DNA of 64,000 bases from Flavobacterium ardleyense. Its GTDB lineage: Bacteria; Bacteroidota; Bacteroidia; Flavobacteriales; Flavobacteriaceae. Both the position numbers and the translations under genes were made by a program. Position 1 is the first letter of the stretch; each line of letters opens with the position of its first letter. The notes below the pieces were generated by a model. That model was given only the letters and a program-made list of their open reading frames with translations. It searched no databases and was not told the origin of the DNA. Positions 8,892-55,744 of the stretch are shown here, in pieces. The stretch covers positions 1,116,001 through 1,180,000 of the forward strand of contig NZ_CP137891.1 in assembly GCF_033547075.1 (NCBI RefSeq), in the 5' to 3' direction.

Positions 8892-9071
8892 ACCACTTAA
8901 AAGAATAATTTAAATAGTTTTCTCGCTGATTATCAACGCGGTATTTATGGGAGTAAAATTTCAAGTATGTTTTAACCCAATGCGTATCTCCAATTAAGTT
9001 AGAGTGGGAGATTGCATTCGCAAAAATAGTGATTTCAAGAGAAGTTTTCAAAAGGATATTTTGTTTTTTTT

Positions 9072-9153
9072 GGAGCTTTATCCCGCTATCCACTATATCT
9101 TTTTCTTTTTTCTAAGAAAAAAAGAAAAAGGATGCCGTTGCTATCGGGGCTAG
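9072..9153 (+). repeat. Dispersed hairpin repeat, family 1 copy E1
   Basis: The flank CGCTATCCACTATATC leads into a hairpin whose arms are tctttttctttttt (from 9098) and aaaaaagaaaaagga (to 9132), then GATGCCGTTGCTATC. Other copies are at 18798-18910, 20868-21002, 22624-22745 (minus), 43412-43541 and 55654-55744. Confidence 0.85.
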
Positions 9154-9169
9154 AAAATCCTCGCCATAG

Positions 9170-9492: not shown

Positions 9493-9778
9493 AATCAAGG
9501 ACGTTATAAATAGTCCTTTTTATGAACCGTAGTATGAGAAAGTTCGAAAGTAAGTTAGTTTTGCACAGTGATGTACAGATATGTGAATTGTACTTTTTGA
9601 AAAAAAATTATGATATTTTACACAATAATTACACCTTCAATCGAAGACAAAATCCCCTTCTTTCCCCCGTTCAATCAAAGACGAAAACCTCAAATTTCGC
9701 AATCAACTTGTTGTGAGCAGCGTTCTTTCGGCGAAAGCCAAAAAACTTTTTTCGTCGGGATTTTTAATACAAAAAAGA

Positions 9779-18547: not shown

Positions 18548-18618
18548 TGGTCTATGGTGTAATGGTAACACAACTGTTTTTGGTGCAGTCTTTCTAGGTT
18601 CGAGTCCTAGTAGACCAA
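18548..18618 (+). tRNA. tRNA-Gln(UUG), copy 1
   Basis: The 71-base gene folds as a cloverleaf: acceptor arms TGGTCTA and TAGACCA, anticodon stem ACTGT/GCAGT with loop TTTTGGT giving anticodon TTG, and T arm CTAGG-TTCGAGT-CCTAG. The terminal CCA is not encoded. An identical gene lies at 22918. Confidence 0.95.
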
Positions 18619-18629
18619 CAACAATTTGA

Positions 18630-18668: not shown

Positions 18669-19243
18669 TAGGCAATTTCCGAAATATATTTCTTCAGGGA
18701 GATTTTCAACACGACGATAAGTTGCCATTTATTTTACTTTTTTCGAATTATTTGGGTGTTGCGTCGGCTAGAAAATTCGTTTTCAAGTTAGAAATTTTAT
18801 GAATGCCGCCGCCGGGCTGTCCACTGTATCTTTGCTGCCAGCACGATTAGTTTTCAAAATTCCAAGTTTTGCTTAGGCAGCAAAGGATGCCGTTTCCATC
18901 CCTAACACGGAGGAACATTAAGTTGAGGTTTTTGTGCAAAAATCATATATTTGAGTTTCGCTATAGTTTTACTTGAACGATATGAAAATCCGAGCTTTGG
19001 TTCATAATTATGCAGTTTGGACACGCGAGCGTCTTGCCCTTGTCCACTATCAAAATTAATAAACTCACCACAATATTGTACTGCTACAAGTTTTATGAAC
19101 TACTTATTGTAATTTCAAAAATCAGATTTACTACGATCTAACTCGTTGTTTTTACATAACTTAATTTATGTAAAAAATATAAATTGTATTAATTTAAAGT
19201 ATAAATTGCAATCATAACTGACCGACAATTAAATATTAATATT
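18669..19243. other. Gap holding a long dispersed repeat
   Basis: No gene is supported. A repeat of about 220 bases (18737-18955) fills the left part. The right part is AT-rich and presumably contains the promoter of the sorting-domain gene, though no clean TAnnTTTG was found. Confidence 0.6.
18737..18955 (+). repeat. Long dispersed repeat copy 1 (contains family 1 hairpin E2)
   Basis: It is nearly identical to 20806-21050, from TTTTTCGAATTATTT to CATATnTTTGAG. The core CCGGGCTGTCCACTGTATC leads to a hairpin with arms ATCTTTGCTGCC (18828-18839) and GGCAGCAAAGGAT (18876-18888), then CGTTTCCATCCCTAAC. Confidence 0.9.
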
Positions 19244-20805: not shown

Positions 20806-21050
20806 CTTTTTTTCGAATTATTTAAGTGTTGCGTCGGCTACAAATTTAGTTTTCAAGCTAGAAATTTTCTGCAAGCCGCCGCCGGGCTGTCCACTGTATC
20901 TTTGCTGCCAGCACGATTAGTTTTCAGAATTCCAAGTTTTGCTTAGGCAGCAAAGGATGTGCTTCGCCAGTTCGCTTCGCTCGGGTCGTTTCCATCCCTA
21001 ACACGGAGGAACATTAAGTTGAGATTTTTGTTTAAATTCATATTTTTGAG
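20806..21050 (+). repeat. Long dispersed repeat copy 2 with a nested 27-bp insertion (hairpin E3)
   Basis: It matches 18737-18955 but carries 27 extra bases at 20960-20986 (starting TGCTTCGCC, ending CTCGGGT) where copy 1 has a single C, just after the hairpin's right arm. The insert matches one arm of the inverted repeat at 5393-5421. Confidence 0.9.
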
Positions 21051-22613: not shown

Positions 22614-22623
22614 AGAATTTGCG

Positions 22624-22745
22624 TTAGGGATTATCTCATAAGATAATATTTCCATAGGAATTCGATGAATTTCATTTGTAGCGGAAATCTTTATCAGGTC
22701 TTTTCGGTCCAGAAAGATTGGGAGTGTAAAGCCCGACTGAAGGGA
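22624..22745 (-). repeat. Dispersed hairpin repeat, family 1 copy E4
   Basis: Its reverse complement matches 43412-43541: CGGGCTTTACACTCCCAATC, hairpin, then TGAAATTCATCGAATTCC, a small ATTATC/GATAAT palindrome and CCCTAAC. Its hairpin stem is less regular than in other copies. Confidence 0.85.
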
Positions 22746-22872
22746 ACGCTCAAAAAAACCAATTGGTCGAAGATAAAAACTTTATTATTCTTTAATTTCT
22801 GATTGCTTTGGGTGTTATTATTGGAACTTTACAGCGCAAAATAAAACATATTGCCAATTTCCTTATTTTCAT

Positions 22873-22917: not shown

Positions 22918-22988
22918 TGGTCTATGGTGTAATGGTAACACAACTGTTTTTGGTGCAGTCTTTCTAGGTTCGAGTCCTAGTAGACCAA
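22918..22988 (+). tRNA. tRNA-Gln(UUG), copy 2
   Basis: It is identical base for base to the gene at 18548-18618, on the same strand 4370 bases away, while promoter and downstream sequences differ. Anticodon TTG in loop TTTTGGT; no encoded CCA. Confidence 0.95.
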
Positions 22989-22991
22989 CAA

Positions 22992-29077: not shown

Positions 29078-29775
29078 GCACTTTTGAACACCTTTTTAAT
29101 CTAAGGATTTTTTGGATATCCATTTCGAAAATCAAAAACCAATATGTGGCTTTCGCCGAAAGAACTCTTAGCAGAACTTTTTTGTGCTATTTCCAAGGAT
29201 TCTAGGAAGACAGCTATAAAACGCATATGCATACTTTTCCGAAACTTAACTGCACTTTTGCACACTATTTTTATCTAAAGATTATTTTGGTATTCTTTAA
29301 AACTTTAAAAACTAATATGTGGCTTTCGCCGAAAAAACTCTTAGCAGAACTTTTTTGTGCTGTTTCCATCGATTCTAGCGAGACATTTGTAAAACGCATT
29401 TTCGTGTTTTACCGAATCTAAGTTGCGTTTTTGTACACTGTTTTATCTAAACATTATGTGGAAATTTCTTTTAAACTTCAAAAACCAATGTCTGGCTTTC
29501 GCCGAAAGAACTCTTAATAGAACTTTTTTGCGGTATAGGTAGCTCCTTATATCGGGACATCATTAACACTCCGATTCATTCATTTCCTTGAAACTCAGTT
29601 GCAATTTTGCACACGTTTGTATCAAAAATCTATTTGCGTATTTCTTTAAAATTCTACAAATTAGTATATGGCTTTCGCCGAAAGAAATCTTAGCAGATTT
29701 GTATGCTGTAGCAAGCCATTTCGTAAAATCTTTAGTATTCGACTTTAAAGTCTTGAGAATGTCAAACGCTGATAA
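29078..29775. repeat. Degenerate four-unit tandem array, period about 174 bp
   Basis: Units start at about 29078, 29252, 29425 and 29601 (174, 173, 176 and about 175 bases). Each opens with a GCAnTTTTGnACAC-like block, passes through TTTAAAnTTnnAAAA, and carries the core TGGCTTTCGCCGAAAGAAnTC, usually followed by TTAGCAGAACTTTTTTG. Units A and B are closest; C and D have drifted. The core contains the near-palindrome CTTTCGCCGAAAG. The rest of the 28915-29860 gap holds nothing else that I can support. Confidence 0.85.
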
Positions 29776-42388: not shown

Positions 42389-43411
42389 ATGAATGAGAAT
42401 TTAGACCCTACCAATAACAGTTTTACTTCGGAAGAATTTGACATTGAGAAAAAATTACGTCCTCTCACCTTTGACGATTTTGCGGGACAAGATCAAGTGT
42501 TAGATAATTTAAAGGTCTTTGTTGCTGCTGCAAATCAGCGGGATGAAGCTTTAGATCACGCACTTTTCCACGGGCCACCTGGATTAGGAAAAACTACATT
42601 AGCCAATATTCTCGCTAATGAACTTGGGGTTGGAATTAAAATCACATCTGGTCCCGTTTTAGATAAGCCTGGCGATCTGGCAGGATTGCTTACTAATCTA
42701 GAGGAGCGCGATGTGCTTTTTATTGACGAAATTCACCGTCTCAGTCCCATTGTCGAAGAATATCTCTACTCTGCAATGGAGGATTTTAAGATAGATATAA
42801 TGATTGAGTCTGGTCCCAATGCACGGACTGTTCAATTAAATCTAAATCCCTTCACACTTGTTGGAGCAACAACTCGATCAGGCTTGCTGACAGCTCCTAT
42901 GCGTGCCCGGTTTGGTATTCAAAGTAGGTTGCAGTATTATACTACAGAGCTTCTAACAAGTATTATCGAACGGTCGGCAAGCATTTTCAAAATGCCAATA
43001 TCAATGGAAGCAGCTGTCGAAATTGCTGGACGTAGTCGAGGTACACCAAGAATTGCAAATGCTCTTTTACGTCGTGTACGCGACTTTGCACAAATCAAGG
43101 GTAATGGTAAAATTGACATCGAGATTGCAAAATTTGCATTAAAAGCTCTTAATGTAGACGCCTACGGTTTAGATGAAATGGATAATAAAATACTTACAAC
43201 TATTATTGACAAATTTAAAGGTGGACCAGTTGGACTTTCTACCATTGCTACTGCGGTTTCGGAAAGTACAGAGACGGTGGAAGAAGTGTATGAACCATTC
43301 CTCATTCAGCAGGGTTTTTTGATGAGAACGCCTCGTGGTCGCGAGGTTACAGAGAAAGCCTACAAACATTTAGGTCGAGTGAAAGGTCTTATTCAGGGCA
43401 ATCTTTTTTAG
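42389..43411 (+). CDS. ruvB: Holliday junction branch migration helicase RuvB
   Basis: RuvB is the hexameric AAA+ motor that drives branch migration together with RuvA, which is encoded at 46,981. The 340-residue protein has Walker [10 protein letters not shown] (about 65-73), Walker [10 protein letters not shown] (about 110-118), sensor 1 ATTRSG and the arginine-finger region APMRARFG. It also has sensor 2 [12 protein letters not shown] and a C-terminal winged helix. Family length is normal. Downstream, the whole gap to queG is a dispersed repeat. Confidence 0.98.
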
Positions 43412-43541
43412 GGCATTTCCCTTCGGGCCGGGCTTTCCACTCCCAATCTTTGTGGGCAGAAAAAGCCCAAAAAGGATTTCTGGTCTAAATGAAATTCATC
43501 GAATTCCTATGGAAATATTATCCCATGAGATAATCCCTAAA
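43412..43541 (+). repeat. Dispersed hairpin repeat, family 1 copy E5 (fills the ruvB-queG gap)
   Basis: CGGGCTTTCCACTCCCAATC leads into a hairpin with arms AATCTTTGTGGGC (43445-43457) and GCCCAAAAAGGATT (43465-43478). Then come TGAAATTCATCGAATTCC and a second small palindrome ATTATC-CCATGA-GATAAT. It starts right after the ruvB stop and ends 5 bases before queG. Confidence 0.88.
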
Positions 43542-55624: not shown

Positions 55625-55653
55625 AAAATCTCGCTTCGGTGAGATTTTTTTTT
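55625..55653 (+). terminator. Terminator after the VanZ-like gene
   Basis: AAAATCTC pairs with GAGATTTT around loop GCTTCGGT, followed by a T-run. Confidence 0.85.
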
Positions 55654-55744
55654 AGGAGCTTTTTCCTGCTGTCCACTGTATCTTTTTCTTTTTTTCCGAA
55701 AAGGGAAAAAAAGAAAAAGGATGACGTTCCCATCAGGGCTAGGG
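55654..55744 (+). repeat. Dispersed hairpin repeat, family 1 copy E6
   Basis: CTGCTGTCCACTGTATC leads to a hairpin with arms atctttttctttttttcc (55680-55697) and ggaaaaaaagaaaaaggat (55704-55722), then GACGTTCCCATCAGGGCTAG. It lies between the VanZ terminator and deoC. Confidence 0.88.

Follow-up and report, generated by a model that had tools for sequence, protein, structure and literature searches.

The hairpin repeats in the window, by which we mean the whole analysed stretch of 64,000 nucleotides from Flavobacterium ardleyense, are copies of the known bacterial motif Flavo-1 (RF01705) or of its longer or degenerate relatives. Their fold is real and strongly selected, and in about half of the copies in this genome it exceeds the Rfam model and forms a three-way junction. 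What has to be explained is a selected, one-strand fold which occupies about 100 sites in this one genome independently of gene direction. We favour, with a probability of roughly 45%, a reading in which Flavo-1 is a resident, strand-specific hairpin recognised by its shape, more likely as DNA than as RNA.

An earlier note on this DNA had described six dispersed hairpin copies, and the element is present at all six places (Table 1). The Rfam gathering cut-off of 42 bits is passed by E1, E2 and E6 and failed by E4 (21.8 bits) and E5 (21.9 bits). E3 is not listed by the Rfam model even at E ≤ 1, probably because of the extra stretch in its left arm. Our model R1, trained on 18 long-form copies of this genome that all lie outside the window, matches all six at E ≤ 1 (E2, 1.1e-12; E3, 2.7e-7; E6, 6.1e-5; E1, 6.3e-5; E5, 0.0076; E4, 0.039). 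The stem sequences given previously were found in the copies, and the single bulged G that five of them were said to share is a bulged C on the folded strand (ATCC-TTT / AAA-GAT). E4 had been called degenerate, which agrees with its sub-threshold score, its left-arm insert and, by eye, the absence of the bulged C; pairing of its closing stem P1 (GCGTT/AACGC) is retained. The proposed picture of shared flanks around a changing stem was right about the stem, but the copies extend further than described, and the "flanks" of the long form contain two helices of their own, P1 and P3.

Table 1. Flavo-1 elements in the window. The strand is the one that folds (minus in five of the six copies, plus in E4); E4 ends were set by eye.
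Copy	Form	Positions	Strand	Matches and features
E1	short (A-type) Flavo-1	9069..9155	-	Rfam match 9075-9155, 78.8 bits; 3' end runs on into GCTCC-AAA
E2	long (B-type)	18750..18911	-	Rfam match 18806-18910, 44.0 bits; P1 GTGTT/AACAC, P2 = Flavo-1 hairpin with GCTGCC/GGCAGC apex, P3
E3	near-copy of E2	20820..21007	-	model R1; ~30 nt extra stretch in left arm
E4	degenerate B-type, other strand	22618..22754	+	R1 match 22676-22731; left-arm insert
E5	B-type-like	43407..43500	-	R1 match; same insert as E4, at and beyond the upper end
E6	short (A-type)	55651..55744	-	Rfam match 55658-55744, 71.3 bits

Two other repeated features were seen in the window. Two tRNA-Gln (TTG) genes with similar 5' flanks (18548-18619 and 22918-22989, 4.4 kb apart) bracket E2 to E4, and a repeat around TGGCTTTCGCCGAAAGAACTC forms four tandem-like copies at 29092-29712 with a spacing of 173-176, with an inverted copy at 9710-9740, 19 kb off.

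Collecting the copies of the complete genome (3,185,123 bp) with the covariance model, a check that had been named in the earlier note, gave 119 Flavo-1 matches at E ≤ 1, of which 94 exceed the cut-off; E2 was missed by the whole-genome search and added by hand, which makes 95 elements. Among the matches listed, R1 points to at least eight further places outside the Rfam list. Flavo-1 was described in 2010 by Weinberg et al. and is named once in the accessible text of that paper, in Table 1, where it is entered for Bacteroidetes as RNA "y" (probably), cis-regulatory "n" and riboswitch "n" (PMC2864571). Rfam classes it as "Gene; sRNA". No function is given in the consulted texts on Flavo-1 or RF01705, PMC9029176 among them, and these texts do not mention a three-way-junction form, of which the 2010 supplement may hold an earlier mention.

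On the folded strand, the short form reads TAGCCC-Y-GAT ... ATCC-(apical hairpin)-GAT ... AGC-R-GGG ... GCTCC-AAA and folds into a single hairpin whose apical stem varies freely and which contains two internal loops and a bulged C. From the bottom up, its helix consists of a G-C-rich base, a variable pair N-N', a small internal loop, a two-pair step, the second internal loop, ATC/GAT, the bulged C and the apical stem. A sequence pattern for this core gave 94 matches in the genome, comprising 91 real elements and three chance hits. Since the pattern itself demands ATCC, GAT, AG and [GCA][GA]A on the 3' side of the internal loop, these letters are no evidence of conservation. Across the 94 matches, N-N' is G-C in 50, A-T in 23, T-A in 17 and C-G in one, the 5' side of the first internal loop is GNA in 85, and the second internal loop is mostly GGC/AYA (54) or of a GNAA/TGNRA kind.

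The start of the short form is absent from 56 of the 95 elements, and 52 of these 56 are closed by the five-base stem P1, of which we found nine Watson-Crick sequences (GCGAG/CTCGC, GCGTG/CACGC, GCGCG/CGCGC, GCGCA/TGCGC, GTGTG/CACAC, GCGTT/AACGC, GCATT/AATGC, GCACG/CGTGC and GTGTT/AACAC). The 52 fully paired cases compare with a mean of 18.3 and a maximum of 29 in 2000 shuffles in which the 3' partner was re-chosen each time; without the commonest stem, 28 of 32 are paired (shuffled mean 12.5, maximum 18). Pairing is Watson-Crick throughout in 48 of the 52, and the other four include wobbles, the wrong partner having probably been chosen in two of these four. A further helix, P3, lies between P1 and the Flavo-1 hairpin; in 51 elements it has 282 paired cells, where shuffling gives 222.8 on average and 245 at most, and the observed count is lowered by a misplacement of the 5' arm by the parser in some rows. 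Alignment A1 comprised 25 of 28 length-filtered long forms, and alignment A2 the 18 of these with one internal-loop type, after removal of seven in which the other loop type or a longer apex misaligns. Over the entire three-way junction, 98.9% of the cells of A2 are paired, and both partners have changed in ten pairs, compared with 3.9 on average after shuffling and 1-3 for slid structures. Since P1 closes nearly all of these copies and P3 covaries, the long form is a three-way junction; P1 is its closing stem, and its end reads CCCAAA.

Free-energy folding of E2 returned a three-way junction with the same three helices, and that of the long-form copy L060 showed P1 and the apex and lacked both P3 and the lower hairpin. 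The z-scores are modest for single copies (E2, -1.29; E1, -1.83; E6, -2.97) and reach -4.51 for L060. Because the opposite strands fold as well (E1, -1.13; E6, -3.35; L060, -3.85) and L060 has a best fold other than the junction, energy alone gives neither the strand nor the shape.

Our comparison of further genomes showed that both forms extend beyond this species. The Rfam model matches 58 of 61 genomes of the genus, with no match in the other three (G018, G020 and G058), and R1 matches 57. As R1 scores short forms as well, 27 of its high-scoring loci in other genomes, 12 of them from a single one (G014), were inspected for the long form; 23 could be parsed and four could not. P1 is fully paired in 22 of the 23, with six different sequences (shuffled mean 11.7, maximum 19). 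In a sample of the phylum, Flavo-1 was found in 60 of 392 genomes, which fall into 25 of the genus itself, 11 others of the family, seven others of the order, 11 others of the class and six farther away.

Pairing is also kept in the core and apex. The N-N' pair is Watson-Crick in 91 of the 94 pattern matches, against a mean of 36.5 and a maximum of 52 in 2000 shuffles, and 355 of the 364 cells at apical positions 4-7 of the 91 real elements are paired, compared with a shuffled mean of 204 and a maximum of 234. Copies and orthologues are non-independent samples, so that all such shuffle counts overstate significance. Wobble-type mismatches in the core and the first six apical pairs are strongly one-sided, with 24 G·T and no A·C in the 91 elements and 11 G·T and no A·C in 49 elements of other species, thus 35 to 0 in all those with an intact apex. 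This count leaves out seven pattern matches without an intact apex (three from this genome, four from others; 6 G·T and 9 A·C), which look like chance hits; over all rows including them the ratio is 41:9. The elements come from searches with covariance models, in which G·U is favoured over A·C. A score could be assigned to 85 elements of this genome; those with at least 50 bits give 12:0 and those with at least 60 bits 5:0, both small numbers. The P1 cells hold seven G·T and one A·C, wrongly chosen partners included. Mutation alone would give G·T and A·C about equally, and the ratio of 35:0 therefore identifies the Rfam strand as the folding strand. One particular strand must fold, which applies to RNA and to single-stranded DNA alike. 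The selection for structure suggested in the earlier note is supported by covariation among paralogues, by covariation among orthologues at one site (below) and by the strand-specific wobbles.

Two sites were followed across species, and at both the copies are passed on in place, with occasional loss. At the first, which lies upstream of a pirin gene, 14 of 19 related loci (17 with a protein identity of at least 90% and the two starting loci) have an element above the cut-off; two further loci, L130 and L136, carry an insert-bearing element by eye, and none was seen in L131, L137 and L141. The core and near flanks are constant at this site, around apical stems that read GTGGTG/CACCAC, GTGCCG/CGGCAC, ATGCTG/CAGCAT or GTTGCG/CGCAAC with one and the same loop, or that are replaced by a wholly new hairpin. 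In the 14 rows, 8 of 23 pairs have changed on both sides (shuffled mean 3.8; 0 of 500 shuffles as high), including an exchange of a core G-C for C-G in one species. A further palindrome-like repeat, GATCTCTCCTTCGTCGAGATGACAA with its complement, recurs in the pirin spacers (upstream flanks of L124, L125, L134, L139 and others). Furthermore, small palindromes of the TCCCGA...TCGGGA type lie inside Flavo-1 apices or arms in several species (L133, L134, L212, L214, L216 and L251).

The second site is the serC-serA spacer, where the element is present in 27 and absent from 23 of 50 loci; these were the 30 best matches to a filled query plus 20 picked for broken alignments, a non-random choice, so that 27:23 is no frequency. 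The tree of serC and serA requires at least seven changes between filled and empty, four of them forced by well-supported branches, and under midpoint rooting, with a weakly supported root, five filled loci lie at its base. Basal filled loci and repeated changes suggest that the element at this site is old and has been lost repeatedly. Among these chosen loci we found no clean empty site and no target duplication, and the junctions are imprecise.

Such compensatory changes might also arise without any present function, if hairpins were kept perfect by template switching (correction of imperfect palindromes) and by gene conversion between copies. Apical stems are indeed swapped as blocks, gaining ready-made palindromes such as TCCCGATAGCTATCGGGA, and by eye the same apex types occur in different copies and species. 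However, palindrome correction would be expected to erase the bulge and the mismatched internal loops that recur among the copies, and to spare G·T no more than A·C, of which hardly any is left; moreover, at the pirin site single pairs have changed on both sides within otherwise unchanged helices. We therefore consider a purely mutational origin of the pairing improbable.

Several observations bear on how the copies spread. Copies look discrete: in the pair at 858516 and 862411, similarity covers the element and reaches 74-105 nt upstream and about 80 nt downstream of the Rfam match, and outside this stretch the sequences diverge. In genome G016, L303-L306 appear near-identical by eye with different outer flanks; since two of them lie about 1 kb apart, larger duplications are possible there. 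A long-form copy lies about 600-640 nt downstream of each of four 5S genes, and the only other 5S gene is followed by a short-form copy at a distance of about 2.1 kb. A link to stable RNA was considered and rejected because the four long-form copies (L054, L061, L073 and L076) are duplicates of one another, alike for at least about 700 nt upstream, so that the association counts only once. The likeness of these rRNA-operon copies stops at the CCCAAA end of the element in four of six pairs, as if its 3' end were the edge of the duplicated unit, and 30-50 nt further on in the other two. Elsewhere in the genome, the surroundings of two Flavo-1 copies, L037 and L038 (2287035 and 2300194, 13 kb apart), are identical in 1479 of 1479 aligned bases and represent either a recent segmental duplication or an assembly repeat. 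One 141-nt short-form query, a weak test, had no match in plasmids or phages.

The earlier note had also raised the idea that a Y1 (RAYT) transposase acts on the hairpins as it does on REP/REPIN repeats. Their dispersed, intergenic placement and their bulged base would suit such an enzyme, and the genome holds six Y1_Tnp (PF01797) matches above the cut-off, one of them about 1 kb from a Flavo-1 copy. However, Y1_Tnp is missing at E ≤ 1e-3 from 20 of the 61 genomes of the genus, 12 of which have at least 30 Flavo-1 matches, and the two counts correlate weakly (rho 0.23, p 0.07; Flavo-1 counted among the matches listed, a value of 64 meaning at least 64). Counted in the same way among the matches listed, the median number of Flavo-1 copies is 34.5 in the 20 genomes without Y1_Tnp and 48 in the 41 others (Mann-Whitney p 0.10). 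One of the genomes without a Y1_Tnp match is G016 with its near-identical-looking copies, and two RAYT-like genes of F. ardleyense, at 590114 and 1240247, adjoin other repeats. Since Flavo-1 populations persist without Y1_Tnp, such an enzyme is dispensable for the existence of the population, and we regard the transposase-substrate reading as very improbable; past mobilisation of Flavo-1 by a Y1 enzyme is possible. The two RAYT-like genes (L020 1429-2288 and L021 1164-2174, the second in two frames) stand beside direct repeats which are known only as repeated peptides in neighbouring frames, FEVRDHRR... and AGTDCTRGASRTDEVNPR.

The placement of the elements bears on whether they act as RNA or as DNA. 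All but one of 94 elements lie outside genes, which were called with a simple codon-usage script rather than a standard program. They are co-oriented with the upstream gene in 45 of 88 cases (p 0.83 with 87 as the total) and with the downstream gene in 42 of 93 (p 0.41), and neither the promoter motif TTG-N-TAnnTTTG nor its -7 part is in excess upstream over downstream of the 95 elements. This agrees with transcriptomics of F. psychrophilum, in which, as published, Flavo-1 matches are found in sense and antisense alike and many lack transcription. Several 5' transcripts of that species overlap Flavo-1 matches. A role as terminator was rejected by eye, as neither strand has a run of T after the hairpin. 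A replication-strand bias was likewise rejected: the folded strand is leading in 46 of 95 elements with the origin placed at 0.5 Mb (44-49 for 0.4-0.7 Mb), a position inferred from the skew of sampled loci and from the strand on which each of the five 5S genes lies, although dnaA is found at the contig start.

A structured RNA acting as such, either as a processing or protein-binding element in read-through transcripts or as a trans-acting small RNA, is a possible reading to which we give appreciable weight. The strand-specific G·U tolerance, the recurring internal-loop types and the three-way junction would fit it, as would the Rfam class, the RNA entry in the accessible text of the 2010 paper (PMC2864571) and the sense orientation of the element in the serC-serA spacer. 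The lack of orientation preference relative to genes, the lack of an upstream promoter signal and the lack of consistent sense transcription in published RNA-seq argue against it. Conversely, G·U tolerance and conserved internal loops are equally typical of RNA and count against the DNA reading, as do the sRNA class in Rfam, the "probably" RNA of the same 2010 table and the 5' transcripts of F. psychrophilum that overlap matches. For a mechanism on lagging-strand single-stranded DNA in particular, the strand bias that it predicts at the replication fork was not seen (46 of 95, with the inferred origin).

We nevertheless prefer recognition of a resident hairpin by its shape. A folding strand that is fixed whatever the direction of genes or replication, together with the lack of a promoter of its own, probably points to recognition by a host factor. 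This putative factor would read the internal loops, the bulge and the junction, and may do so on extruded or single-stranded DNA, as for REP-like repeats, rather than on an expressed small RNA. The apical stem would only need to be a helix, so that its letters could change over time through compensatory substitutions and through small palindromes that insert into it. Taken further, Flavo-1 might be a chromosomal structure tag rather than an sRNA gene, that is, a REP-like family of strand-specific hairpin and three-way-junction repeats which selection keeps in place at many sites per genome, which a non-Y1 enzyme rarely copies and which a host factor reads in the form of folded DNA; we put this forward as speculation that is unlikely to hold. 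The three-way junction offers a concrete recurring target for finding a partner protein, and a placement that is indifferent to transcription makes the question of RNA versus DNA directly testable.

REP/REPIN repeats with their RAYT enzymes are many dispersed, unoriented intergenic hairpins that are long-lived in place. Flavo-1 copies resemble them in being numerous, dispersed, intergenic, unoriented and persistent in place, but show no dependence on Y1_Tnp and have a larger fold. Imperfect palindromes of the MITE/ERIC type are discrete units with paired ends, scattered in spacers; Flavo-1 is likewise discrete, with paired ends, and spread over spacers, but differs in being a strand-specific three-way junction. 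Compared with Flavo-1 as first described (accessible text of PMC2864571) and modelled in Rfam, the elements studied here share the core, with three window copies above the gathering cut-off, as well as the strand and the occurrence in Bacteroidetes. The family itself has thus been known since 2010, and what appears to be new here is the long form, a three-way junction present in other species too, which adds the covarying helices P1 and P3 to the 76 positions of the Rfam model and places the CCCAAA end outside the Rfam match.
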